From positions 1 to 28,793 of the IMG/VR virus record IMGVR_UViG_3300014050_000108: a stretch of DNA of 28,793 nucleotides; one strand, given 5' to 3'. Under the pieces are notes generated by a model. It worked only from the letters and a program-made list of their open reading frames with translations. It did no database searches and was not told the DNA's origin. Origin of the DNA: a virus. Made by a program: the position numbers and the translations under genes. Each line of letters begins with the position of its first letter. Positions within the stretch are counted from its first letter, which is position 1. Positions 2,501 through 26,148 of the stretch are shown here, piece after piece.

Positions 2501-4447
2501 TTATTTTACCTTGCTATGATATAGTATACTTGCTAAATAGCTATCCAATTGATGATCATAAGCTATATTATTTATACTTGCAATAACTTCTTGATTTTTA
2601 TCAAAAGGTTGATTTATGTAATCTTCTATTTTAGTATTCCAATTTTCTGGAGATTCGTTAGCAATAATTAATTTAGAAATTTGATTAGCAACATCTTTTT
2701 GATCAAAACTTAACTTTTTAATGCCATGTTTTTTTCTTAAAAATGCTGCGACTTCTTCTTCTAATTTTTGAGCAAAGATAAGATTTTCTTTTACTTTGGA
2801 AAGACTATATTTTTCTTCTAAAGAAGCTTTAGATTGTTTACCTTCTCCAATTGGTTTAACATTTTTCGTTGATTGAGGTACTCCACCGCTTCCGCTTGGC
2901 CTACCAGTTTCTCCTCCGCCACCCATTTTAGGACCACCAATTAATGGTTGATAAAATCCTTGATCTCTTAGTTCTTTATATTTTTGTTGAGAAATTAATG
3001 CGTCTTCTGGTTGTGGAAGTCTGCCAGTATCAATTGCTCTTAATCCTTCTTCTGGAGTTAAAATACCAAGCTCCATCAATCTATTATAAATTCTAGAATA
3101 TTGAACATCATCTTTTAGATCAATGTCATCAAATTCTGGTGTTGGAAAATTTTTAAAACCTAAATCTTTACTTATTCTTCTAACTTCTGGAATTATAAAC
3201 TCATTTATAAATGTTTGTCTAGCTTGTTTTAATCTTTCAATAAATACTTGAACTTTAATACTTGTATTTGCAAATTTTTCATTACCAATAAGAATATTAT
3301 TTAATCCCATTTGAATATCTCTATCAACTACTTCATATTTTTCTGGTCCAATAAGGTTGCCAATATCAGGAATAACAAATTGGGCTTTTGTTGTATAATC
3401 TGCAATAAGAACTCGACCAACGCTTTGGTTTGTAAATAAAGCTTGCATCGCTTCAAGATTCTTTTGATTTACTCCACCTTTGTCTGGGTCTGTTCCCATT
3501 GTTACAAGAAGAATGGCTTGTTGCATAGTACGAGTTATTGCCATATCCATTTTTTTCATTTCGGCTTTCCAATTAATATCATCTAATACTGGAAAACCCA
3601 TGGGTACGGCAAATGGCTCATAGTCTTGTTTTTTATAAAAAACAGCGCAAAGCCTTTCTCTATCTAATGGTAAAGTTAAAATACCAACAGTCCTTTTCTT
3701 GATCAATTCTTGAGTTTCTGGAGGAAGACTTTTCAGTACTTCTCTATCTTCATCTGTTTTAGGAGCTTTTAATCTTTCTAATTCATAATCACTTAATACT
3801 TTATAAAATCTTCCAACAGAAAAATTAATAGTTCCGCCAATTTGAATATCAGATGGATTTAATATTAAATATCTTGATGGCAAATTAACAGATGCTTTGG
3901 TAGATGTTAAACCAAATGCTTGAGTAATTTTATTAATATCTGAATCTGAGACTTTTGTGTCAAATCTATAAAGGAATACATTACCAGAGCGATAGTATTC
4001 TCTAAAAAACTTATCTTGTAAATCATAAATGTTTATTTTTTTGAATAAGGCATCAAAAAAATCTCTACTTTTTTGACTTCCACCTTTAAAATAAAGATTA
4101 CTACAAGAAAATTCTGTCATTAAATCAATAGTATTTCTAAATATAGCAAAATTATAATATGCTTTTTGGCATAAAATAACAGCATCCCTTACGTTCATGT
4201 TGGATGCATTTTTTACTCCAGTAGAATATCTAAAAGGGATTAATCCTTCATCAATATTTTTAAACCTATCAGTTCTTACAATTCCACCCGCAGTATTTCT
4301 ACGAGTTTGAGTATGTGTAGGATCACTTACATCAGAACCAGTATATGCCGAAGCTTTTGTCTCATAAGAAGAGGCTTGACTGACCATCAGAGGTTGTGTT
4401 TCCTCATTTTTGGTTATTTTTAATTTATTTTTAATTTTTTTAGCCAT
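2501..4447 (-). CDS. Portal protein
   Basis: A 648-residue protein directly downstream of TerL. The portal forms the dodecameric DNA channel at one capsid vertex and docks the terminase. Supporting features: residues about 90-160 (NTIDLMTEFSCSNLYFKGG, then FFREYYRSGNVFLYRFD) match the early helical and wing part of portals; a GLNNILIGNEKF segment followed by a long amphipathic helix and FINEFIIPEVRRISKDLGF matches the stem and clip part; a Gly/Pro-rich linker near residue 510 precedes a charged C-terminal tail. Its length is within the usual range for portals with extended tails. A GTGTAAT element lies 12 nt before the ATG, so it may be transcribed independently of TerL. No scaffold, protease or major capsid gene is in the window. 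Confidence 0.85.
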   Translation of the reverse strand: MAKKIKNKLKITKNEETQPLMVSQASSYETKASAYTGSDVSDPTHTQTRRNTAGGIVRTDRFKNIDEGLIPFRYSTGVKNASNMNVRDAVILCQKAYYNFAIFRNTIDLMTEFSCSNLYFKGGSQKSRDFFDALFKKINIYDLQDKFFREYYRSGNVFLYRFDTKVSDSDINKITQAFGLTSTKASVNLPSRYLILNPSDIQIGGTINFSVGRFYKVLSDYELERLKAPKTDEDREVLKSLPPETQELIKKRTVGILTLPLDRERLCAVFYKKQDYEPFAVPMGFPVLDDINWKAEMKKMDMAITRTMQQAILLVTMGTDPDKGGVNQKNLEAMQALFTNQSVGRVLIADYTTKAQFVIPDIGNLIGPEKYEVVDRDIQMGLNNILIGNEKFANTSIKVQVFIERLKQARQTFINEFIIPEVRRISKDLGFKNFPTPEFDDIDLKDDVQYSRIYNRLMELGILTPEEGLRAIDTGRLPQPEDALISQQKYKELRDQGFYQPLIGGPKMGGGGETGRPSGSGGVPQSTKNVKPIGEGKQSKASLEEKYSLSKVKENLIFAQKLEEEVAAFLRKKHGIKKLSFDQKDVANQISKLIIANESPENWNTKIEDYINQPFDKNQEVIASINNIAYDHQLDSYLASILYHSKVK

Positions 4448-4466: not shown

Positions 4467-4467
4467 A

Positions 4468-6312
4468 TTATCCAAGCATAATAGGAGAAAAAGTTGTAGC
4501 TTGAGGCTCATCTTTCTGTATCATAATATCATTATAGCACTTTAAAGCCCAATTTGCTAACATAAATGCTGAATAATTATCTTTTCTAGCTTTATTAGCA
4601 GAAGTGCTTCTTTTTAAATGTTGAGGTAAATCAAAACTTTGAGTTCCTCTACTTGTACTAGAATGCTCTACTATAGCGCATTGTTTTTTAGTTTGATATA
4701 TAAAATCATCTTGATTTTCTATAAAATCTAATAGCATCCAATCTTTTTTATCATCTGATTTCATTAATTCTATTGGTGCGCCTTTATTAACAACTGAATT
4801 AAAAAATGATTCATGCGCCGCAGTTTTACTTGCGAACCATATTCTTTTATAATCAATACATGCTTGTAGATATTCATTAGCTTTGCGAATAAATGTGCTT
4901 GTGAATACTTGATTAAAGGCTATTCTTTTATCTTCAAGATTGTATTTTCTTTTTGCATTCTTAACCATTATGTCATAATCTACGCCTTCTAAATCACTAT
5001 CAAATTCAAAAGTTTTAATTTCTAATTTTTGTTTTTTAAATAATTCAGACTCGTTACAAGCGGCAAGAAATACGTCTGCTCCTGCGTTATCAAGAATCAT
5101 AAATACAATATTAAAATTATTTAATATATAATATAAATAAGAAACGTGATTTTTAAGATTTCCTAAACCAGCATAAGTATGAACTAAAGTACCATTTTTA
5201 TTTTCGTCATCATATTCTAAAACTGCCATAGCAAAATAATCTGCATTTGGGCTATCGCTCATATTAGGATCAATTCCTAAAATATATTTTTTCTTTGGAT
5301 CACCTTTTAAGAGAGTGTGTGGGGCTTCTCCATTTTTTAAAGTACATTCTTCCATTTTCTTTGCATTAAAATAACTATCACTACCATCTGTAAATTGAGC
5401 ACAATATTCTCTGAGAAAACTACTATGACTAGATCCGCCAGCTTGAGCCTCTTCAATGATTGTTTTATCAATCATTTCTTCTGGAAGAGCTTCATAGCTC
5501 ATTTGACTAACAAAATAAGTAGCTTCAGTTTTTTCTTTAGAAGTAATCTTTTCTGACCATTCTAAATATGTTTTGTAAAGATTTTCAAATGTATAACTTG
5601 CTGAAGATAATGCTACCATTTTACTTGTATTTTCAAAAACAGCCCTATCCTCTTCTTTCATTACTCCTTCTGATATAAGTTTATCTTCCATTTCTCTAAT
5701 CTGCATTCTTTCTTTCATGTTTTGTGGCGCAACCAAGAATGGCATTAATACATTTTTAATAATTTCTTCTGGAAGCAAAAGAAACTCGTCAAGTACAAGG
5801 ATATTAGCGCGAAACCCTCGAATTTTTTCGCCATTAAGCGGAATAGCAACAATGCTTCCACCATTAATCTGCCATTCAAATTGATCATTTCTTTTTGCTT
5901 TAGCGCCAAAACATTGAGCGAGTAATTCTGCGCCTTTACTATCTACAATTTTTTCTAGATTATTAAAAATAAAACGTGCAGTTCTGAATGTAGGTCCAGC
6001 GATAAGAATCTTTGTATTAGGTTCAAATACGCATTGAAGAAAACAAAAAACGGCTGCCATAAATGACTTACCGCAACCACGACCAAATACGCACATATTA
6101 AAATTTCTATTCATTAATGCTTTAAGATGAATTTCTTGATAAGGAGCTAGTTTGACTCCACTAATTAATTCTGTTGTAAAGCCGATATTAGCTCTTAAAA
6201 ATTTAGCTAAAGTAATTTTGGCTTCTTTATCATTGAGATAACCCTTCAGTTCTGCTAATTCAGCATTAACATCTTTAACTTCTTTTATATATTTTTCTGG
6301 ACAGTATATCAT
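4468..6312 (-). CDS. terL: Terminase large subunit (TerL)
   Basis: The 614-residue motor and nuclease that packages DNA through the portal. Walker A is GRGCGKS at residues 77-83, Walker B is ILVLDEF at 171-177 with the catalytic Glu at 176, and the coupling motif is SSAS near 236-239. The C-terminal RNase H-fold nuclease starts with GIDPNMSDSPNADYF, its first metal-binding Asp near 348, and has a second acidic motif at FMILDNAGAD near 408. The length is normal for a two-domain TerL. The start ATG overlaps the stop of the ERCC4-type nuclease gene as ATGA. The portal lies immediately downstream, the classical order. Confidence 0.95.
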   Translation of the reverse strand: MIYCPEKYIKEVKDVNAELAELKGYLNDKEAKITLAKFLRANIGFTTELISGVKLAPYQEIHLKALMNRNFNMCVFGRGCGKSFMAAVFCFLQCVFEPNTKILIAGPTFRTARFIFNNLEKIVDSKGAELLAQCFGAKAKRNDQFEWQINGGSIVAIPLNGEKIRGFRANILVLDEFLLLPEEIIKNVLMPFLVAPQNMKERMQIREMEDKLISEGVMKEEDRAVFENTSKMVALSSASYTFENLYKTYLEWSEKITSKEKTEATYFVSQMSYEALPEEMIDKTIIEEAQAGGSSHSSFLREYCAQFTDGSDSYFNAKKMEECTLKNGEAPHTLLKGDPKKKYILGIDPNMSDSPNADYFAMAVLEYDDENKNGTLVHTYAGLGNLKNHVSYLYYILNNFNIVFMILDNAGADVFLAACNESELFKKQKLEIKTFEFDSDLEGVDYDIMVKNAKRKYNLEDKRIAFNQVFTSTFIRKANEYLQACIDYKRIWFASKTAAHESFFNSVVNKGAPIELMKSDDKKDWMLLDFIENQDDFIYQTKKQCAIVEHSSTSRGTQSFDLPQHLKRSTSANKARKDNYSAFMLANWALKCYNDIMIQKDEPQATTFSPIMLG

Positions 6313-7244
6313 AATAATTTCATATCATATGCCAATTGTAAATCTACTTTTTTATAAAAACAATTTGATGCTAAAATTGCTTCTATTGAATTTTTCATCT
6401 CTACTCTTCCATCAACAAATAAAAATTGAAGATTATTATATTCTTGTATTAATTGTCTAACATTATGGAATATGTATTCTGGAGTAGCTTTAATTTTTTT
6501 ACTGATATGAGGAAGATATTGAAAACTAAGAGCATTAGATAATTTTTCTTCTACTATAACTATTAAGTAACTATTATTTATATGGGCTTTTTCTATTTCA
6601 TTTTTAAATCTATCAAAATTTTTAACGCTAAGAGTGCTAATAAAATCGCTTAAGCTTTTTCTTTCTATGTAACAATTACAATTATCATTATTAGAAGTAT
6701 AATCGCCAAATGGTAAAGTTTTTATCTCAAAAGGAATATCAAACTTTAACCAATTCTGTTCTCTAGTATCAACATATATAGTATTTTTTGAATTTAATTT
6801 ATTTTTAAATTGATTAGATATATTTTTTGGATGAATGAATTTATTTTCTAATCCAATATCAGAACATAATTCATAATAATCATCAAATATTTTATTATAG
6901 AATATAATTGATGGACTCATAATCGTTCTAAGTTCGATTTGAGATGGACTATAAATTAAATTTTTATCGTTTCTTCTTTTAACTAATAAACCTTTGCAAT
7001 ACTCTTTGGCTTTTTCTATAGTTTGCTGTTTTAACCATTTTTTAAGATTATTTTTATCATTAAAATCGCTATTAAGATATTGATCTTTGCTTTTAAAATT
7101 TATTACATCGCCCGTTAATAAATCACGCCTTGGATAATAAGTATGATAATATTTTTCTTTATTTAAACCATAGCCTCTTAGCGCAAGATGAAGACTTTTT
7201 TCATCTTTAAACTCTTTACCATCCACTTTACATATTACGCTCAT
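6309..7244 (-). CDS. ERCC4/XPF-type nuclease
   Basis: A 311-residue protein with a clear ERCC4-type nuclease core: DTREQ at residues 159-163, FGDY at 179-182 and IERKSLSDF at 193-201, corresponding to the family motif GDx(n)ERKxxxD of XPF/Mus81-type structure-specific endonucleases. Enzymes of this family cut branched or flapped DNA. The first 150 residues are Lys- and Tyr-rich with no motif I recognise and may recognise DNA or a partner. No helix-hairpin-helix domain is apparent at the C-terminus. The gene overlaps both neighbours by 4 nt and lies directly upstream of TerL, so its job may be resolving branches in replicated DNA before packaging; that role is inference. Confidence 0.8.
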   Translation of the reverse strand: MSVICKVDGKEFKDEKSLHLALRGYGLNKEKYYHTYYPRRDLLTGDVINFKSKDQYLNSDFNDKNNLKKWLKQQTIEKAKEYCKGLLVKRRNDKNLIYSPSQIELRTIMSPSIIFYNKIFDDYYELCSDIGLENKFIHPKNISNQFKNKLNSKNTIYVDTREQNWLKFDIPFEIKTLPFGDYTSNNDNCNCYIERKSLSDFISTLSVKNFDRFKNEIEKAHINNSYLIVIVEEKLSNALSFQYLPHISKKIKATPEYIFHNVRQLIQEYNNLQFLFVDGRVEMKNSIEAILASNCFYKKVDLQLAYDMKLL

Positions 7245-8335
7245 CCATTTAAAATCTCGTCCTTTGAGATTCCTAAAATTTTAGATTTTACTTCATCCAT
7301 AGTAGAAAGCCTGTCTATTTCTTTTTCTATAACTTGTTTTCGCATTTCTGCCATTTTTAAAAGTTTAGCTCTACTCTCCTCTTCTTTCCACATTTGTACT
7401 AAATTAATAATTGATGCTGTTTCTTTTACTTGTTTGCTTAATTTATCGCTGCGCTTTACTTTAAGATCATTATTTAATTTTTGTTGACGATTAACGCAAT
7501 CATTATATTCTTTTCTGGCTGTTGTACTAGCTTCAACAAGCGCCATAGGAATTTTGCCGTCCTCTTGCATAGATAATTCTATTTGATTTTGTAAAACATT
7601 AATTGTTTGTTGAATATTAGAAGAAATAACTACTTCTGTGCAAAGAACAATATATTGGTCTACTTCTTCTTGAGAAAGATCACCTTTATCATAAGTATAT
7701 CTAACAAAACTACTTTCAAAAAGTTCTCTATCTGGTTCATTATCATAAATATTCATTTGATGAATAAACCTATGAGTATTCATATAACTAATTAAAGCGT
7801 TAATTTCTTTTTTATGTTTATGAGTGAGTTTATTTTTATCAATACCATCTAAAACATATTTATTAATTTTAGCAATCATTCGTTCTTCGCTTCGAGGTGG
7901 TTTATATCCCTCTGTGGCTACATTTTCATTTTCTGTATTATTAAATTTTATATTACTAGGAATATTTTTCATATACTCAAGAACGCTTCTTGTTTCTTGA
8001 GATAAATTTGTTAATGATTCATTTTTAAAAAGTATTTTAGCCATCTCCAAACCAGTCATTGTATGGCAATTATTACTAATATATTCTTTTTGATCTAGAT
8101 TTAATTCTATTAATCCTTTAGCTTCATATTCATGACTTTTTTTAGGCTTAATTTGTCTTGAAGCGAGAAATGCTTTTACAGCTTTACCTTCTTTGCTTCT
8201 GCCATCTAAATCATCTCTATCAAAAGCAAGTTTAACTAATTCTGCCAAAGATGGAGGATTATCTGGACGATCATTCCATTCTTTTAATAGTTTTAATTGT
8301 TGCTCTTCTGTTAATATTAAAATATCTTCGCTCAT
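7241..8335 (-). CDS. Unknown helical protein; possible small terminase candidate
   Basis: A 364-residue, highly charged and mostly helical protein that I do not recognise. Residues 10-60 (LTEEQQLKLLKEWNDRP, then SLAELVKLAF) look like a helix-turn-helix region, and residues about 265-350 are a probable coiled coil rich in Lys, Glu and Gln. It overlaps the ERCC4-type nuclease and the sigma-like gene by 4 nt each. An HTH plus coiled-coil layout two genes upstream of TerL would fit a small terminase subunit, but there is no direct motif and it is long for that role. It could instead be a transcription or recombination accessory protein. Confidence 0.45.
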   Translation of the reverse strand: MSEDILILTEEQQLKLLKEWNDRPDNPPSLAELVKLAFDRDDLDGRSKEGKAVKAFLASRQIKPKKSHEYEAKGLIELNLDQKEYISNNCHTMTGLEMAKILFKNESLTNLSQETRSVLEYMKNIPSNIKFNNTENENVATEGYKPPRSEERMIAKINKYVLDGIDKNKLTHKHKKEINALISYMNTHRFIHQMNIYDNEPDRELFESSFVRYTYDKGDLSQEEVDQYIVLCTEVVISSNIQQTINVLQNQIELSMQEDGKIPMALVEASTTARKEYNDCVNRQQKLNNDLKVKRSDKLSKQVKETASIINLVQMWKEEESRAKLLKMAEMRKQVIEKEIDRLSTMDEVKSKILGISKDEILNG

Positions 8336-9015
8336 ACAATATCAATATCTCCATTATAAAGATGTTTTTTTACTTTAAACATAATAGCTTTTTTAAGATT
8401 TTTGATTTGTTTATATCCTGCGGTTCTATTCTTTTCTGTCGTTCTATATCCCATTAATTTTGCGACTTGCTCTTCATTTTTATGTTCAATATATAAGTAT
8501 CTATAAATTTTCCATTCTATTGGTTTGAGAATTTTTTCCATTTTAAAATGAATATTTTCTGCTGTTTTTTCTAAATCAACTGCATCATTTTCTATATCGT
8601 GTACTTCGTTTAAATGGTTTTCCATGGTAACAGGAAGTTTTGTATCATGCGCATTCTTTTTGCTTTTTACCCAATTTGCATATAGTGGACAATTTGTGCA
8701 TTGTTTCCCATATATACTACAGCCATCATCAGCTTCTGCAGCTGCGCATTTTAAGCATGGCCTTGTATAATTACTATAAGTATTGCGTATTAAATTTTTA
8801 ATTTGATTACTAATAATTCTATTAACCCACGGCGCTAATGGTTTAGTTTGATTATATAAATGCCATTTTTTATAAATATGAATTCTTAAAATTTGAGAAA
8901 CATCGCTAAAATCCATCCAAGAAATTGCCGTAAGATTCCATTTATTTCTTCTTTTGAAGATTTCGTTATCTATTTCCGTAATACAACCTTCAAAATTGCG
9001 TTTTTTCTTAGGCAT
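8332..9015 (-). CDS. Sigma-70-family-like factor with Cys-rich insert
   Basis: A 227-residue protein. Residues about 35-80 (DVSQILRIHIYKKWHLYN, then APWVNRIISNQIKNLIRN) resemble sigma region 2, and residues about 160-220 (LKPIEWKIYRYLYIEHK, EEQVAKLMGY, then a basic helix) resemble the helix-turn-helix of region 4, which contacts -35 DNA. Between them are five cysteines (C87, C90, C99, C106, C109) that could bind a metal. This matches the compact two-domain form of phage and ECF-type sigma factors, with an unusual insert. If active it would redirect host RNA polymerase to phage promoters, and the GTGTAAY element before late genes is the obvious candidate target; that link is inference. It sits in the late operon with 4-nt overlap downstream. 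Confidence 0.6.
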   Translation of the reverse strand: MPKKKRNFEGCITEIDNEIFKRRNKWNLTAISWMDFSDVSQILRIHIYKKWHLYNQTKPLAPWVNRIISNQIKNLIRNTYSNYTRPCLKCAAAEADDGCSIYGKQCTNCPLYANWVKSKKNAHDTKLPVTMENHLNEVHDIENDAVDLEKTAENIHFKMEKILKPIEWKIYRYLYIEHKNEEQVAKLMGYRTTEKNRTAGYKQIKNLKKAIMFKVKKHLYNGDIDIV

Positions 9016-9505: not shown

Positions 9506-9790
9506 TTAATCTATATAATAAAATACTGAAACATTTGCTAACGAACTATATACCCCAGTATTTGTTGTTACTTTAATCGTAGATGGAAGATTTGAATTCC
9601 CCGCTGCAACAAACATAATTGTATTTCCAGAAGCATCATTTTCTTTTAATGTAACATTTCCGCTAGTATTAACGCCTAAGATATAGATATTTTTATCTTG
9701 TCCTGGCGCATCTATTAACTTCGCAGCTCCTGTTGATGTAGCAACTAAAGCTATTTTTTCAAAACCTGAATCTCTAAAATATTCTGCCAT
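9506..9790 (-). CDS. Small virion-type protein
   Basis: A 94-residue protein rich in Gly, Thr, Asn, Val and Ala, with alternating strand-like segments (KIALVATSTGAAKLIDA, YILGVNTSGNVTLK) and an aromatic C-terminus. This composition is typical of small phage head-decoration or fibre-base proteins that form a beta-sandwich. It lies just downstream of the 456-residue structural protein, with which it is probably assembled. A GTGTAAT element lies exactly 7 nt before its ATG. The function is unknown. Confidence 0.5.
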   Translation of the reverse strand: MAEYFRDSGFEKIALVATSTGAAKLIDAPGQDKNIYILGVNTSGNVTLKENDASGNTIMFVAAGNSNLPSTIKVTTNTGVYSSLANVSVFYYID

Positions 9791-14378: not shown

Positions 14379-14717
14379 TTAGTCAAATATATTAGGATCA
14401 AACTCTGGTAATGTATCTTCTGCTATAACTTGTTGAGCTTTTTTACTAGGAAAAAGATTAATTAATTTAGTGTCATTACTGTTATTAACTTTTTTAGGAA
14501 CATAATTTTCTACTATTTGTTGTGTGGTTACTGTATTTTCATGAACAATGTATATATTCTTTGTGTTGGCATTTGGTACAATTTCTTCGTTATTAAGATA
14601 AAGCCTGTAATCTGGCTTTTTATCAAATAAGCCAAAGTTCATGCCAAAAGCTTTGAACATAAATAGCATACAGTATGTAAAGCCTAACCATGCGGCTAAT
14701 TGAAATATAACGTCCAT
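14379..14717 (-). CDS. Small membrane-anchored protein
   Basis: A 112-residue protein with one N-terminal membrane segment (residues about 4-24, FQLAAWLGFTYCMLFMFKAF) followed by a polar domain with many Asn and Thr and an acidic end. There is no lipobox and no cleavable signal pattern. The layout (single anchor plus soluble domain) would fit a spanin or holin-associated protein, but no partner is identified, so the function is left open. It lies 9 nt after the stop of the nucleotidyltransferase-fold gene. Confidence 0.5.
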   Translation of the reverse strand: MDVIFQLAAWLGFTYCMLFMFKAFGMNFGLFDKKPDYRLYLNNEEIVPNANTKNIYIVHENTVTTQQIVENYVPKKVNNSNDTKLINLFPSKKAQQVIAEDTLPEFDPNIFD

Positions 14718-14726
14718 TTATATATA

Positions 14727-15260
14727 TTATTCTGATTTTTGAATAATGTCAAGCAAGTATTCTTTAAATTGAAGTAAATCTATCTTATCTTTTGTTCTTA
14801 TTATTTTCTTTTCTTTATTTCTAGTATATTTAAGTTTAACATAAAATATTCTAATAGGTTCATAAATATTAATATTTAAATCTTTTATATTTACTGTTGT
14901 ATAATCTTGGTTAATAAGTCCATCTTTGAGGAATATAATTTCTATTTTTACTGCTTGTTTTGATAAAAACACTTTCTTTTTATTTCCTAAAGGCCAATCA
15001 GAAGCGTCTACCATAAATTCAAATCCATTTTTTTCTAGGAAATCTATCCATATATCTTTTTGGTTATAATCTACAGATATCTCCAAATCTTCATTATATC
15101 TATAAATAGCTTTATTAAAGATTGCTAAAGCTGTGCCACCACAAATATAATATTTAAAATTATTTTTATTTGCAAATCTTATTAAAAGCTCAAGCGTATT
15201 ATATAAACGCTGCATATTAATATCAAATTTAAAAGATTTATTTAATTCATTGTATAGCAT
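14727..15260 (-). CDS. Nucleotidyltransferase-fold protein, AbiEii/MNT-like
   Basis: A 177-residue protein. YYICGGTALAIFN (residues 37-49) followed by YRYNEDLEISVD (53-64) matches the GG...(10-15 residues)...EDhE/D core of pol-beta-type nucleotidyltransferases such as AbiEii toxins and MNT proteins (GGTAL, then R-x-S-x-DhDh). Family members transfer nucleotides to RNA, protein or small molecules. The second acidic residue is Glu rather than Asp, so activity should be checked. No AbiEi-like partner is adjacent: the neighbours are a primase-like gene (one base away) and a small membrane protein. It may be a repurposed toxin, a tRNA-acting enzyme or an anti-host factor. Confidence 0.6.
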   Translation of the reverse strand: MLYNELNKSFKFDINMQRLYNTLELLIRFANKNNFKYYICGGTALAIFNKAIYRYNEDLEISVDYNQKDIWIDFLEKNGFEFMVDASDWPLGNKKKVFLSKQAVKIEIIFLKDGLINQDYTTVNIKDLNINIYEPIRIFYVKLKYTRNKEKKIIRTKDKIDLLQFKEYLLDIIQKSE

Positions 15261-15261
15261 A

Positions 15262-15840
15262 TTAATATTTTACTAATGACTTATCTAAATATAATAATTT
15301 TTGTATTGTTGGATTTTTATTCTCTGTAGCTTTAAAATAACGAGTTCCACCAGCTAATCTAACTGGTTGATTATTTAGCATCGCAGAACGACAAAAGCCA
15401 TGAATTAAATAGAATTTTCTCCAATATTCACCTTGATCGTCATTTAAAACCCATCCATGAATAGATTTATTGCCTGAATCAACTACTGCTACTAATTTCA
15501 TCCCTTTTTTTAAATTATTTATAAATATTTGAGCTACTTGATCTTTACTTATTCTATCATGTTCAAATATAATATATTTATTTTTATCTATATTTATTGG
15601 TTTTCTTGATCCATGTCGAGTTTTATAAGAGCTTCCGCTAATATAAGTTCCATAATTTATTGGTAAATTTTTTAACCATAATTCTGCTGGATTAAAGAAT
15701 GGATATTGAGTATGATTTACATGTTTACCAATCCATATCAAATCTTTTGGAGCAAATAATGATATATTAGCTATCATCATCTCTTCTGGAGTCAAGTTTT
15801 CTACTGGATCTGGAGAAGCTTTAATTAAATCTTGAACCAT
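15262..15840 (-). CDS. Archaeo-eukaryotic primase-like catalytic domain
   Basis: A 192-residue protein with the motif series of the AEP primase palm: hydrophobic strand then FEHD (E93 and D95, motif I), VDSGNKSIHGW (residues 121-130, motif II with Ser-x-His), and RLAGGTR (161-167) followed by QKLLYL (180-185), which occurs at the end of many bacterial and viral AEP domains. AEPs synthesise primers from NTPs or dNTPs. Only the catalytic palm appears to be present; no helicase or PriCT-like domain is fused. The gene is one base from the NTase-fold gene and one base after the HNH gene. It is the only replication-type enzyme seen in the window, so it may prime phage DNA synthesis. Confidence 0.65.
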   Translation of the reverse strand: MVQDLIKASPDPVENLTPEEMMIANISLFAPKDLIWIGKHVNHTQYPFFNPAELWLKNLPINYGTYISGSSYKTRHGSRKPINIDKNKYIIFEHDRISKDQVAQIFINNLKKGMKLVAVVDSGNKSIHGWVLNDDQGEYWRKFYLIHGFCRSAMLNNQPVRLAGGTRYFKATENKNPTIQKLLYLDKSLVKY

Positions 15841-15841
15841 A

Positions 15842-16180
15842 TTAATTTCTATTTGTTATTTTAGCTAGCCATGTAGCTACATCTTTTATTACATTAGGAT
15901 TAATTGTTTTATAATTGCCAAGGTGACCAAATAGTAGATGACAATTGACGCCATTCTTTTTGCTTTCACATAAAGTTATAAGATTTTTAGGGTTTAATTC
16001 TAATTCTGGGGATTGATTAAATGGTTTTATATGATGTACTTCTAATTTTTTTTTGCCGCCACATGCTCTACATTTGGGTTCTTTTTTTAAATGTTCTTTT
16101 CTGGTTTTGTTCCATTTAGAAGATCTACGTTCTCCTATAGAAGCTTTACCTTTAAGAACATCTTTAATATAAGTTATCAT
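15842..16180 (-). CDS. HNH endonuclease
   Basis: A 112-residue protein with a complete HNH core: CRAC (C37, C40), the VHHI motif (H49, H50), LNPKNLITLC (N66, C71), then NCHLLFGH (C80, H81, H86). The first half is basic. The size and motif fit the free-standing HNH nucleases of phages, which may assist terminase in cutting DNA during packaging or act as homing enzymes. Distance from TerL (about 10 kb) makes the packaging role less certain. The ATG overlaps the stop of the small membrane-protein gene as ATGA. Confidence 0.85.
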   Translation of the reverse strand: MITYIKDVLKGKASIGERRSSKWNKTRKEHLKKEPKCRACGGKKKLEVHHIKPFNQSPELELNPKNLITLCESKKNGVNCHLLFGHLGNYKTINPNVIKDVATWLAKITNRN

Positions 16181-16404
16181 CTGCTACGCCAATCTCCGCC
16201 ACATTGTAATTTTATTTTAATAATATTATTGGTTTTTTTAACAATAGAATTTAAAGGTTCTTGTTTTATTGGTATTATAGGCTTGCTATCTATAGGAATA
16301 ACAATAATTTTGTCATTTAATTTGTTTGTTGTATATTTGGCAATAGAGAAGACTATTACTGATATTAATAGTGCTAGATAATAGGTTTTGGTGGTTTTAT
16401 TCAT
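16177..16404 (-). CDS. Small single-pass membrane protein
   Basis: A 75-residue protein with one N-terminal membrane helix (residues about 8-24, YYLALLISVIVFSIA) and a short basic extramembrane part rich in Ile, Lys and Pro. It is the first gene of the minus-strand late cluster, preceded by GTGTAAT exactly 7 nt before its ATG. There is no recognisable family; a holin or spanin component is possible but unsupported. Confidence 0.5.
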   Translation of the reverse strand: MNKTTKTYYLALLISVIVFSIAKYTTNKLNDKIIVIPIDSKPIIPIKQEPLNSIVKKTNNIIKIKLQCGGDWRSR

Positions 16405-16411
16405 ATTATAT

Positions 16412-16418
16412 ATTACAC
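16412..16418 (-). promoter_or_regulatory. Candidate late element GTGTAAT, 7 nt before ATG
   Basis: GTGTAAT on the minus strand, 7 nt before the ATG at 16404, at the head of the late cluster. Confidence 0.45.
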
Positions 16419-16668
16419 ACTTATCTTTTTAACCTATATAGCAAAAGACTTATAAGCAAAAATAGCCCCGTGGATTTTTTTACTTTGATATATTATTGAT
16501 TTATAAAGGTATTTAAATAGATTTAAAATAAAGGGGGGAGGTATATAAGAGAATAGTATTATATTATTGGGGAGATCTATATAAGTACCCCCTCACCCAA
16601 TTTCGTTTTTAAAGTCATTCATTTTTTTCAAAAATGGGGGTATATATAAATTTTTTTTGCCGATTCTC

Positions 16669-16697
16669 TGTAAGTCGTTGATAATCAATGAAATTTA
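16669..16697. repeat. 29-bp palindrome, single copy, centre -53
   Basis: A single 29-bp palindromic element (arms TGTAAGTCG and TGAAATTTA, centre TTGATAATCAA). Its centre is 53 bp before the ATG of the 50-residue gene at 16736, and it ends 4 bp before the -35 box. Confidence 0.7.
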
Positions 16698-16701
16698 ATT
16701 G

Positions 16702-16729
16702 TTGCATAATTCCTATTCTGTGATAGATT
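16702..16729 (+). promoter_or_regulatory. Early promoter, leaderless type
   Basis: TTGCAT, 16 bp, TAGATT with an upstream TG; 6 nt (AAGAGC) to the ATG at 16736, which places the predicted transcription start at the start codon. Confidence 0.75.
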
Positions 16730-16735
16730 AAGAGC

Positions 16736-16888
16736 ATGAAGAAGAAATTAAGCAAATACGAACAACTCATCGCTAACCTCAACAAAGCGGCTCAAGACCT
16801 CAAGGATGCCTCGACTCAGGCCGTGGCAACTCTCGAAGCTCACGCCGAGAAGATCGAAAGCATCCATCAAGATGCTATGCAAAAATAA
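16736..16888 (+). CDS. Small coiled-coil protein, paralogue of the 18769 gene
   Basis: A 50-residue helical protein, MKKKLSKYEQLIANLNKAAQ followed by an Ala/Glu/Lys/His helix. It is similar to the 62-residue protein at 18769-18957: both have the core L-x-N-L-x-K-A-x-x-D-L-K-x-A. Both start 6 nt after an early -10 box. It is the first early gene after the divergent control region. Function unknown; a short helical protein of this kind could bind and modify a host protein. Confidence 0.6.
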   Translation: MKKKLSKYEQLIANLNKAAQDLKDASTQAVATLEAHAEKIESIHQDAMQK

Positions 16889-16891
16889 TTG

Positions 16892-16920
16892 TTGACGAAA
16901 CATAACTAGAAAGGCATACT
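16892..16920 (+). promoter_or_regulatory. Early promoter, leaderless type
   Basis: TTGACG, 17 bp, CATACT; 6 nt (CAGACC) to the ATG at 16927. The -10 box is weaker than in the other members. Confidence 0.55.
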
Positions 16921-16926
16921 CAGACC

Positions 16927-17346
16927 ATGAAACAAAACCTCAAAATCAGCTACCAAACCTTCGGCGAAAACAATGCTTACCTTCTCGAAGGAAGCATCAA
17001 ACAAATCAATCACTTCTATAACGGCATCTATAACTGGTGCGGAACTAATGGCAAGTTGCACGATATGGGCAACGGCAAGGCGTTCTACTTCTACGCTCAC
17101 CCCGATGATGTGAAGAAAGCTCTCACCAAGATCGCCCTTCACGCCTTGGTTAATAAGATCAACGCTAAGGGTCGCAAGGGTGGACTGCTTGACCTTGCTA
17201 CCAATAAGGCACAGAGCATCATCGATGAGATGGTGCAGACCTGCTTCCTTTGGGGTGCTACTAGCTCGGAGGGATATAGCCTTGGCACTATCACAGCAGA
17301 GAAGCCTAGCGACTACTGCGGAGCTATCAGCAGTGGAAGGGACTAA
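16927..17346 (+). CDS. Unknown protein, paralogue of the 25762-26148 gene
   Basis: A 139-residue protein. YNWCGTNGKLHDMGNG (residues about 36-51) and NAKGRKGGLLDLATNKA (about 79-95) align with YNWGGTNGELQWMSES and KKFRGAKGGLKAVVMNR of the minus-strand protein at 25762-26148, and both continue into QxQD/EGYSLGTITAEK and FYSIGQVSAEK. The shared motifs YNWxGTNGxL, KxxxGGL and SxGxxxAEK define a duplicated phage family of unknown function. The gene has its own leaderless promoter and is followed 4 nt later by the SleB-like hydrolase, with which it is probably co-transcribed. Codons here are more GC-rich than in the structural half. Confidence 0.65.
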   Translation: MKQNLKISYQTFGENNAYLLEGSIKQINHFYNGIYNWCGTNGKLHDMGNGKAFYFYAHPDDVKKALTKIALHALVNKINAKGRKGGLLDLATNKAQSIIDEMVQTCFLWGATSSEGYSLGTITAEKPSDYCGAISSGRD

Positions 17347-17350
17347 TACT

Positions 17351-17728
17351 ATGACAGCAGAACTATTCATCGTAGCACTTACGCTCCTAGGCGAAGCTAG
17401 GGGTGAAACCTTTGAGGGTATGGCTGGGGTTGCTAGCGTCATACAGACACGCATGGTAGAGCGTCACCAATCTGCTAGCCAAGTATGCCTAGCACCTAAA
17501 CAATTCAGCTTTTGGAATGGTGGAGTGAGTGAAGCTACCAAGAAGAAGCTACTGGCTACACCACAAGGTAAGAACGCTCTTTACCTTGCAGACCTAGTCG
17601 TCCATCAGCAGATGCCCGACATTGTAAAGGGTGCTAACCATTACCATGCTGTGAGCGTGTCACCTAAATGGGCTAAGAATGCAAAGCTAGTGGCAACAAT
17701 ACGCAATCACAAGTTCTACAGGCTGTAG
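17351..17728 (+). CDS. SleB-like cell-wall hydrolase (endolysin candidate)
   Basis: A 125-residue protein from the ATG at 17351; the longer frame upstream lies inside the previous gene. LLGEARGETFEGMAGVASVI (residues 12-31) is the start of the SleB/CwlJ-type Hydrolase_2 domain, with E15 as the likely catalytic acid; the C-terminal NHYHA (97-100), PKWA and NHKFYRL complete the family pattern. Such enzymes are lytic transglycosylase-like and cut peptidoglycan glycan strands. The domain fills the whole protein; no signal peptide or binding domain. It is likely the lysis enzyme, yet it lies in the early-type cluster, 4 nt after a gene with an early promoter, with no holin adjacent. Confidence 0.85.
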   Translation: MTAELFIVALTLLGEARGETFEGMAGVASVIQTRMVERHQSASQVCLAPKQFSFWNGGVSEATKKKLLATPQGKNALYLADLVVHQQMPDIVKGANHYHAVSVSPKWAKNAKLVATIRNHKFYRL

Positions 17729-17730
17729 AC

Positions 17731-17758
17731 TTGACAACATAGAAAGGTATGATAAACT
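17731..17758 (+). promoter_or_regulatory. Early promoter, leaderless type
   Basis: TTGACA, 16 bp, TAAACT with TG one base upstream; 6 nt (AAACAT) to the ATG at 17765. The -35 box starts 3 nt after the hydrolase stop. Confidence 0.8.
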
Positions 17759-17764
17759 AAACAT

Positions 17765-18160
17765 ATGACAAACAATAATCCACTCAAACGAGCGATCCTT
17801 ATCGATCCATTCACCGAAACAGTATCACAAGTAACACTCGTTGACACTAAACTCCAAACCCTTCGCACTCTCATCGATTGCGAGATCATCACGATGACAG
17901 GTTTAGCCAATGGTGTAGACATGATCCTAGATGATGAAGGCCTTTTGAAAGACTCAAGCTCTCAAGCCTACTTCAAATTCGGGATTGGTTCGCAACCTTT
18001 CGCTGGCAAGGCGTTGATTGTTGGCACAGACGATGAGGGTGAAACTGTTTCACTTCCCGAAAATGTCACAACCGAAAAAATTTCAGAGCGTGTGATCTTT
18101 TTCAAACCATCAAAAAAATATCTTGATGAATCTTTAGAAATCAAAGTTCTACCATTCTAA
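17765..18160 (+). CDS. DUF3846-like protein
   Basis: A 131-residue protein. The order of elements resembles the DUF3846 family of plasmid and phage proteins: KRAILIDPFTETVSQVTL strands, a LQTLRTLIDCEIITMTGL segment (family form: x-LQ-x-xVGGxIE), DMILDDEGLLKD, and a GKALIVGTDDEGETVSLPE end (family form: GxAxxxGxDDxGxxxxL). No function is known for the family. It has its own leaderless promoter and ends about 10 nt before the next repeat pair. Confidence 0.6.
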   Translation: MTNNNPLKRAILIDPFTETVSQVTLVDTKLQTLRTLIDCEIITMTGLANGVDMILDDEGLLKDSSSQAYFKFGIGSQPFAGKALIVGTDDEGETVSLPENVTTEKISERVIFFKPSKKYLDESLEIKVLPF

Positions 18161-18171
18161 AAGCAATTTTT

Positions 18172-18247
18172 TGTAAGTTGTTTTATACCAAGGACTTACA
18201 AAAGCGCCTCCCTCCAGTTGTAACTCCTTGTCAATCAATGAAATTTA
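18172..18247. repeat. Paired 29-bp palindromes (pair 1)
   Basis: Left copy 18172-18200, right copy 18219-18247, centres 47 bp apart. The 18-bp spacer AAAGCGCCTCCCTCCAGT is GC-rich. Inner arms can also pair with each other (CAAGGA-TTACAA with TTGTAA-TCCTTG). The right centre lies 63 bp before the predicted start of the promoter at 18262. Confidence 0.7.
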
Positions 18248-18261
18248 AATGAAGATTTTTC

Positions 18262-18289
18262 TTGCGAAAATAAAAATTTCTGATAAATT
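18262..18289 (+). promoter_or_regulatory. Early promoter with leader
   Basis: TTGCGA, 16 bp, TAAATT with upstream TG. Unlike most, it has a leader of about 25 nt with a Shine-Dalgarno AAAGGA before the ATG at 18321. Confidence 0.7.
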
Positions 18290-18320
18290 CTAAATAGAAA
18301 GAAAAAACAAAGGAAAACAT

Positions 18321-18527
18321 ATGCAAAACGAAATGAACAAAATGATGAACCAAAAAGAGTGGATGCAATTCGGAGATTTGAAAAGATGGGATCTCTCGGA
18401 GTTTGAAGCCTATAACAAAGGATTCAGCGATGAGGGGTGGGAAAAGTTCAGCAATCCTTACACTGAGAATACTCTCGCTTGGTGGCTTTATAACGCTGGT
18501 GGTTACGATTGCCACACCAATAACTAA
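18321..18527 (+). CDS. RMF/CrpP-like small protein
   Basis: A 68-residue protein. FEAYNKGFSDEG then NPYTENTLAWWLYNAGGYD (residues about 28-62) follows the pattern A-x-x-x-G-(8-12)-NPY-(6-8)-W-x-x-G of ribosome modulation factor and related small phage proteins. RMF itself dimerises ribosomes in stationary cells; for the phage versions the target is unknown. It has a normal ribosome-binding site, unlike its leaderless neighbours. The Thr-tRNA gene begins 11 nt after its stop, so they may share a transcript. Confidence 0.55.
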   Translation: MQNEMNKMMNQKEWMQFGDLKRWDLSEFEAYNKGFSDEGWEKFSNPYTENTLAWWLYNAGGYDCHTNN

Positions 18528-22100: not shown

Positions 22101-22176
22101 TAAATCTCGTTGAACATCAAAGAGTTACAAAAGCGGCAGGGATTTTGCCTAAGTCTTTGATACTTAAGCAGTTACA
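22101..22176. repeat. Paired 29-bp palindromes (pair 5)
   Basis: Left copy 22101-22129, right copy 22148-22176, centres 47 bp apart, spacer AAAGCGGCAGGGATTTTG. The left centre is 63 bp before the GP88-like ATG. The right copy covers the last codons of the ArdC-like gene. Confidence 0.7.
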
Positions 22177-25761: not shown

Positions 25762-26148
25762 TCAACTATCGTGGTCTAGCTTTTCAGCAGAGACTTGGCC
25801 GATAGAATAGAAGTCTTGAACTTGTGCTGTCTTAACAAAGTTTTCGGAAGGAATGTTGTTGATCGTATTCATCACACGATTCATAACAACTGCTTTCAAT
25901 CCACCTTTAGCACCACGGAACTTCTTACCAAGTTTATCACTCAAACTATTCATAACATACTTAAACATTACTCGCTCCAACTTCTCAAGAGTAATCCAAA
26001 AATATGCAAAGGATTCGCTCATCCATTGAAGCTCACCATTTGTTCCGCCCCAGTTATAGACTCGATTGTGGAACTGCTCGATCTCGTCCTTGTTACCTTT
26101 AATCCCGATAACCCAATGGGCTCCGAGGTTTTGTTTAATTAGTTTCAT
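25762..26148 (-). CDS. Unknown protein, paralogue of the 16927-17346 gene
   Basis: A 128-residue protein sharing YNWxGTNGxL (residues about 31-40), a KxxxxxKGGL motif (about 76-85) and the end SxGQVSAEK with the 139-residue plus-strand protein at 16927. The copies lie about 9 kb apart on opposite strands and differ at many positions, so the duplication is not recent. It starts 7 nt after an early -10 box. Function unknown. Confidence 0.65.
   Translation of the reverse strand: MKLIKQNLGAHWVIGIKGNKDEIEQFHNRVYNWGGTNGELQWMSESFAYFWITLEKLERVMFKYVMNSLSDKLGKKFRGAKGGLKAVVMNRVMNTINNIPSENFVKTAQVQDFYSIGQVSAEKLDHDS

Follow-up and report, generated by a model that had tools for sequence, protein, structure and literature searches.

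What does the non-coding DNA between the late and the early genes of an uncultured phage do? In such phages, the cis-acting sites that serve packaging and replication are difficult to locate. The DNA analyzed here, referred to as the window, is the whole 28.8-kb stretch (28,793 nt) of the virus record IMGVR_UViG_3300014050_000108. Its left, late block lies on the minus strand and encodes a terminase, an ERCC4 nuclease, a sigma-like protein, PhoH, and a virion structural protein. The right, early side contains small early-type ORFs, a cell-wall hydrolase, ArdC-like and GP88-like proteins, and seven tRNAs. The lineage is defined by its terminase large subunit (TerL, 4468–6312, minus strand). The protein encoded next to it (2501–4447) is portal-like by position alone and gave no family match. 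The 8332–9015 protein is called sigma-like from a Sigma70_r2 match of 22.8 bits, which is below the cut-off of 24. Two early proteins, 16927–17346 (plus) and 25762–26148 (minus), resemble distant paralogs, and the second matches loci of the first at about 30%.

Isolate phages have no DNA match to positions 14500–18500 of the window. Among the matches listed, TerL is 22–29% identical to isolate phages (20 of 77 records) and the DNA polymerase about 30% (12 of 1332). The locus L224 had no match to isolate phages, and the locus L229 had two short matches in sugar genes. A TerL search of genome contigs for a host found no relative.

The first leftward ORF (75 aa, 16177–16404, minus strand, from ORF calls) and the first early ORF (50 aa, 16736–16888, plus strand) part at the locus studied here, and no likely gene was seen between 16404 and 16736. 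The initial annotation had reported a triple repeat of a G-run and TATATAA in this interval, and had taken the point where late (minus) and early (plus) transcription part as a usual place for an origin or a master promoter cluster.

The Repeat and Its Conserved Part

The triple exists as described. G-runs stand at 16533 (GGGGGG), 16569 (GGGG), and 16636 (GGGGG), with TATATAA at 16542, 16578, and 16643, which gives offsets of 9, 9, and 7. A repeat search places the three segments in one 19-nt family, in which the other two copies are 74% identical to the reference copy. Three pairs within 117 bp were seen in 0 of 400 dinucleotide shuffles of the window, and two or more pairs in 0 of 2000 dinucleotide shuffles of the local 361 bp. 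The C-runs said to lie nearby are present at 16466 and 16588.

Of 21 relatives selected through their terminase, 18 match the 601 bp around the triple. These 21 are a subset of 80 loci, and the three that do not match (L006, L007, L011) extend just 3.2–4.1 kb on that side of TerL. With this conservation and with an early promoter and a candidate late promoter on its flanks, the late/early parting point is borne out as a conserved control locus. When the repeats themselves were sought in relatives, the claim divided: the G-runs and the other letters are kept, and the TATATAA words behind the second and third G-runs have mostly gone. To judge from the alignments, the conserved unit is a two-box element with 56–58-bp spacing and not the G-run and TATATAA triple. 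The real part of the repeat is, on the same reading, an A-tract beside the G-run, common to segments A (other strand), B, and D.

The alignment of the window with 17 of the 18 matching relatives (L103, a copy of L102, was omitted) contains separate conserved blocks A, B, C, D, and E and an early promoter. Box 1, GGGGAGA (16569–16575, plus), is the late-side end of the two-box element. It is present in 17 of 17 aligned homologous regions, which were retrieved without the box-1 pattern. It also opens segment C (16569–16592, plus), which reads GGGGAGA-N12-CCCCC in the alignment and could form a GGGG/CCCC hairpin of 4–5 bp. The C-run of segment C shifts position or is absent in distant relatives. 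A spacer of nearly fixed length follows (16593–16621), the middle 20 nt of which are unconserved in the alignments. Box 2, or segment D (16622–16640, plus), was defined from the alignment and from free-gap scans as TTTTTTTCAAAAATGGGGG. Its core is TTTTTTCAnAAAnGGGG, with TTTC at 16626, 57 bp after box 1 in the window. Box 2 is near-invariant though it was absent from the first search pattern.

Segments A and B lie on the late side of box 1. Segment B (16526–16568, plus) is partly conserved and is A-rich, then GGGGGG, then AT-rich (TATATA..AATA). It is a second A-rich/G-run box with an AT-rich flank, and its G-run is missing in L129, L143, and L168. Segment A (16458–16487) contains a AAAATAGCCCCnnGGATTTTTTTACTTTGA motif at a variable distance from box 1. 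The sequence upstream of the element has no conservation in distant members. Directly after the box-2 G-run, one clade (L089, L092, L094, L095, L099) carries an insert of about 110 bp that opens with a hairpin-forming G-run/C-run stretch.

A Fixed Distance between the Two Boxes

The segment C pattern was found in 49 viral contigs, one copy each. Exact segment D is present in 32 of 47 distinct rows from the loci first gathered. By eye, TTTC stands 57 nt past box 1 in the 46 near rows, except in L094 and L167, where the distance is 58. A scan in which the distance was left free from 42 to 77 returned at least 78 further loci, some of them on contigs already in the set. Among the matches listed, the boxes stand 56 (10) or 57 (33) apart in 43 of 43 that have a window-protein homolog nearby; L203 and L237 are counted here through the 17180–17728 hydrolase alone. 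Among the matches listed that have no such homolog, 29 of 35 stand at other distances (24 in an unrelated 48-nt class and 5 elsewhere) and 6 stand at 57. A second scan, which used box 1, a longer form of box 2, and a free gap of 32–62, gave a gap of 47 in 38 of 40 stretches and of 46 in 2 of 40, equivalent to distances of 57 and 56. A run of four or more C was present in 38 of these 40 stretches.

Over all phage loci gathered, 11 distinct sequences have the distance 56, 71 have 57, and 2 have 58 (L094, L167), counts that are not independent events because the phages are related. GGG follows box 2 in 11 sequences at 56, 68 at 57, and 2 at 58, and elsewhere in the range 35–75 no GGG-bearing phage sequence was found. 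The GGG is missing in three of the 71 sequences at 57. One of them is L236/L252, probably a chance match. Bacterial genomes served as the control. They contain 98 stretches with the two-box pattern, of which 80 were examined as loci. The distances in these are flat, and all those at 56–58 are without the box-2 GGG. The middle 20 nt of the spacer have a mean identity of 30% against 27% expected by composition (66 thinned sequences). The middle is thus saturated, and length has outlived sequence. For non-coding DNA of a phage, so strict a spacing is unusual. Another, separate set of viral loci (L180, L204, L205, L216, and 20 more) has GGGGAGA..CCCCC..TTTCACAAA at 48-nt spacing, and it is without homologs of window proteins.

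Copy Number, Polarity, and Composition

Each contig carries one element (49 of 49 and 41 of 41), with 0 in a backward-read control; these 90 contigs were selected by matching the element pattern. The deepest members, L182 and L224, have a TerL identity of 37–38%, and L159 stands at 56%; the invariance of the boxes in this deep set arises partly from how the searches were built. Box 1 faces the terminase/PhoH (late) side and box 2 faces the early side. The element sits at a step in base composition. GC content is higher on the early side than on the late side in 54 of 54 members, by a mean of +0.107, where 54 of 79 members (the doubtful L236 among the 79) had enough sequence on both sides. In the window, GC steps sharply from 0.28 on the late side to 0.39 on the early side around 16570. 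In the relatives G060 and G022 the GC-richer early stretch runs about 12–13 kb from the element.

The flanking ORFs do not keep one arrangement. By ORF calls they point away from each other in the window, L224, and L193 and toward each other in L372, L375, L376, and L253, and in L186 and L377 both read the same way. Hence, transcription direction does not define the site, and it is not simply a divergent promoter. A divergent promoter cluster fails as a general explanation, since some other lineages have flanking ORFs that read toward the element. The element was also considered as a recurring promoter, and this was rejected because it is single copy.

Promoters beside the Element

Segment E (16670–16698, plus) is the repeat TAAGTCGTT-N4-ATCAATGAAATTTAA, which is found again ahead of early genes on both strands. 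The repeat is palindrome-like. It is followed by an early promoter (16702–16729, plus), TTGCAT-16-TAGATT with TG before the -10, which is conserved in the alignment, recurs with E, and would direct a transcription start here. The ATG of the first early ORF comes 7 nt after the -10 hexamer. The same order of E and then sigma70-like boxes, with TG.TA.ATT-like -10s and often an ATG about 6–7 nt further, suggests leaderless early mRNAs on both strands. E/early-promoter modules were noted in the window at 16670–16735, 18221, 18694, and 19486 (plus) and at 22127, 23429, and 25153 (minus).

The motif TGTGTAATA at 16411–16419 (minus) is a candidate late promoter for the leftward block. In the window it occurs on the minus strand at 4467, 9805, and 16419, 15–20 nt before the ATG of the ORFs 2501–4447, 9506–9790, and 16177–16404. 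In the window and four relatives, an ATG follows it inside a 38-nt stretch in 18 of 21 occurrences. Its counts in the four relatives are near chance and roughly half of the sites would have an ATG by composition (an estimate), and therefore it is a candidate late promoter only. The T4 late motif TATAAATA was rejected, its frequency being at chance. A search of four relatives for PF00940 (T7-type single-subunit RNA polymerase) gave no match; 14 controls were equally without a match. The element is thus bordered in the window clade by an early promoter on one side and a candidate late promoter on the other.

Possible Functions of the Element

We read the element as a putative protein–DNA recognition site. 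Its job is most likely packaging or the making of a genome end, held tentatively at a probability of roughly 0.35, followed closely by a replication origin. In the mechanism proposed, the locus, which is polar and present once per genome, would serve for recognition at the late/early boundary of a tailed-phage genome of about 165–175 kb. A phage protein complex would grip GGGGAGA and TTTTTTCAnAAAnGGGG 56–58 bp apart, and the DNA between the boxes would serve as a ruler only. The terminase would bind at the element on concatemers and cut. Such a cut would leave the GC-richer early region of about 12–13 kb at one end of the virion DNA, like the pre-early terminal repeat of T5. Packaging fits the polarity, the border position, the composition step, and the indifference to gene direction.

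Contig ends count against this proposal without deciding it. Among the 90 contigs, 62 extend more than 1 kb beyond the element and the other 28 end at scattered positions 72–892 bp from it on the early side, and no physical DNA end was seen at the element. A cos-type end was rejected, as the contig ends scatter. In G061 the break falls at about +0.5 to +2 kb from the element. The pile-up of contig ends on the early side may merely reflect repeats and variable genes there. G060 (171,916 bp) carries on one contig most of the gene order that occurs piecewise in G003, G013, G020, and G022. It has a 357-bp direct terminal repeat. This repeat (L354 1–357 and the end of L362) falls within a long ORF, in a tandem repeat rich in Ala, Pro, and Thr. 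As it lies within a tandem-repeat coding stretch, it need not mean a true genome end.

Two further points weigh against packaging: in the window, TerL lies about 10 kb from the element, and no small terminase was identified. A lead for the DNA-binding partner is the 7241–8335 protein (minus strand), which has no usable family or fold match. Its predicted structure (pLDDT 80.5, pTM 0.49) consists of two N-terminal three-helix units and long C-terminal helices. This layout resembles that of small terminases, but no fold match backs the likeness. A Foldseek search of the model against PDB and viral structures gave no match at E 0.001, and the VIA-align rows cover chiefly the long helices (residues 214–332). 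The protein is conserved to L182 at 33%, and its gene adjoins those of the ERCC4 nuclease, the sigma-like protein, and the terminase.

A replication origin is an alternative only somewhat less likely than packaging. A phage initiator would bind both boxes together with the A-rich/G-run boxes of segments A and B, melt the AT-rich flank, and load the phage DnaB, or an R-loop over the G-runs would prime replication as at T4 oriF. T4 oriF and oriG, in the account covered here, require a promoter and an A+T-rich unwinding element (PMC3016281), and in the window clade the promoter lies downstream of the element. The single copy, the deep conservation, and the A-rich/G-run box common to A (other strand), B, and D argue for an origin, and strict spacing would also suit an origin complex. 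Relative G022 has genes for DnaB and for DNA polymerase III alpha, as well as for RecA, ribonucleotide reductase, and Thy1. In the low-GC set the 50 bp before box 1 are AT-rich (GC 0.20 vs 0.29 for the late side, n = 51), but they exceed 35% GC in 11 of 79 members. The absence of DnaA boxes (TTATNCACA) also speaks against it, with 0 exact in the window and none at one mismatch or fewer in 16400–16760. The skew test that was to reveal an origin did not support one: the cumulative GC skew of a near-complete 172-kb relative turns elsewhere. In G060 the raw skew turns near 79.5 kb and 166.5 kb and the detrended skew near 89 kb and 28.5 kb, and the element is at 136 kb. A GC-skew switch is absent at the element in G060 and G022, where skew is confounded by gene direction. 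Skew as a sign of an origin was rejected in G003, G013, G020, G022, and G060, in which neither cumulative nor third-codon-position skew has a switch of the expected sign at the element. Genes on the same strand in G060 have a third-position skew of -0.184 on the late side and +0.017 on the early side (the difference is weak in G022), which is of the opposite sign to a G-rich leading strand. Third-position skew is negative for the late-block genes of each of the five genomes, perhaps as a matter of codon usage. An origin also gives no reason for the fixed polarity at a composition step.

The element might instead act in transcription or as RNA, as a short RNA from GGGGAGA to a U-run about 54 nt on or as an early–late switch promoter or antitermination site. 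GGGGAGA resembles a transcription start, the GGGG/CCCC hairpin and the T-run would suit such an RNA, and the early and candidate late promoters are close by. A GGAGA/UUUUC helix would pair both boxes; it is beyond the reach of covariation because its columns are invariant. RNAalifold on 40 sequences returned the GGGG/CCCC stem alone, however, and the C-run of that stem shifts or is missing. Among the variable columns of 66 sequences no covarying RNA helix was found: the best antiparallel stem scored +0.080 over column shuffles against 0.091 for a parallel-pairing control. Rfam 15 found only tRNAs at gathering score in the window, with two weak snoRNA hits at the element region that are far below it. 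The lack of upstream conservation in distant members and the varying direction of the flanking ORFs also weigh against a transcription or RNA element, which we consider unlikely, a little behind an origin. No covariation was found and the C-run shifts while the total length stays fixed, and therefore two protein contacts on DNA are favored. A guide-like RNA for the 20-nt variable middle was dropped, since close relatives drift by substitution and not by whole swaps. Two rigidly spaced boxes, one set per genome, would also fit site-specific recombination or partition. This is improbable: the boxes are not inverted copies of one another, and no recombinase or partition gene was noticed beside the element in a passing view. 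Finally, G-runs and TATA words could coincide in AT-rich non-coding DNA, and the triple as first written is indeed unconserved. The shuffles, the flat spacing in the bacterial genomes, and conservation to 37–38% TerL identity leave almost no room for this, and for the two-box element they have already refuted it; for the TATATAA words it may hold.

Comparison with Known Systems

The element pins the late/early border in contigs down to 37–38% terminase identity and is a marker for orienting genomes. It also offers a way to find its reader protein and a place to test how genome ends or origins are defined in these phages. The literature search found no description of the two-box element in the parts of the sources that it covered (PMC3016281, PMC7029224, PMC4737164, PMC13250531). 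It is a little short of an even bet that a previously undescribed, deeply conserved, one-per-genome two-box ruler site, conserved in length and not in sequence, sets the early/late border and starts packaging (or replication).

Several phage systems resemble this locus in part. The likeness to T4-type late promoters lies in a phage sigma-like protein and a short AT-rich motif just before the ATG of three window genes. The T4 motif is TATAAATA, whereas that of the window is TGTGTAATA. The R-loop origins oriF and oriG of T4, as far as the source describes them, are like the element in their size of about 100 bp, in a promoter nearby (in the window clade), and in an AT-rich flank (in many members) (PMC3016281). 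Unlike them, the element has a deep two-box spacing rule, and its AT-rich flank is not universal. The pac site of SPP1/SF6, the target of the small terminase, is a packaging start amid repeated boxes, as the element may be, in the sections consulted (PMC4737164). The SPP1 pac site lies at the small terminase gene and overlaps it, whereas the element is about 10 kb from TerL. In T5, the relevant parts of the source describe the pre-early region as a terminal repeat with twofold coverage (PMC13250531). At the locus here a terminal repeat, nick, or double coverage would be a prediction, and the window is without DnaA boxes. The likeness is one of description: in the T5 pre-early repeat and injection-stop region, as in the element locus, an early block is set apart by repeat-rich, non-coding control DNA (PMC13250531).
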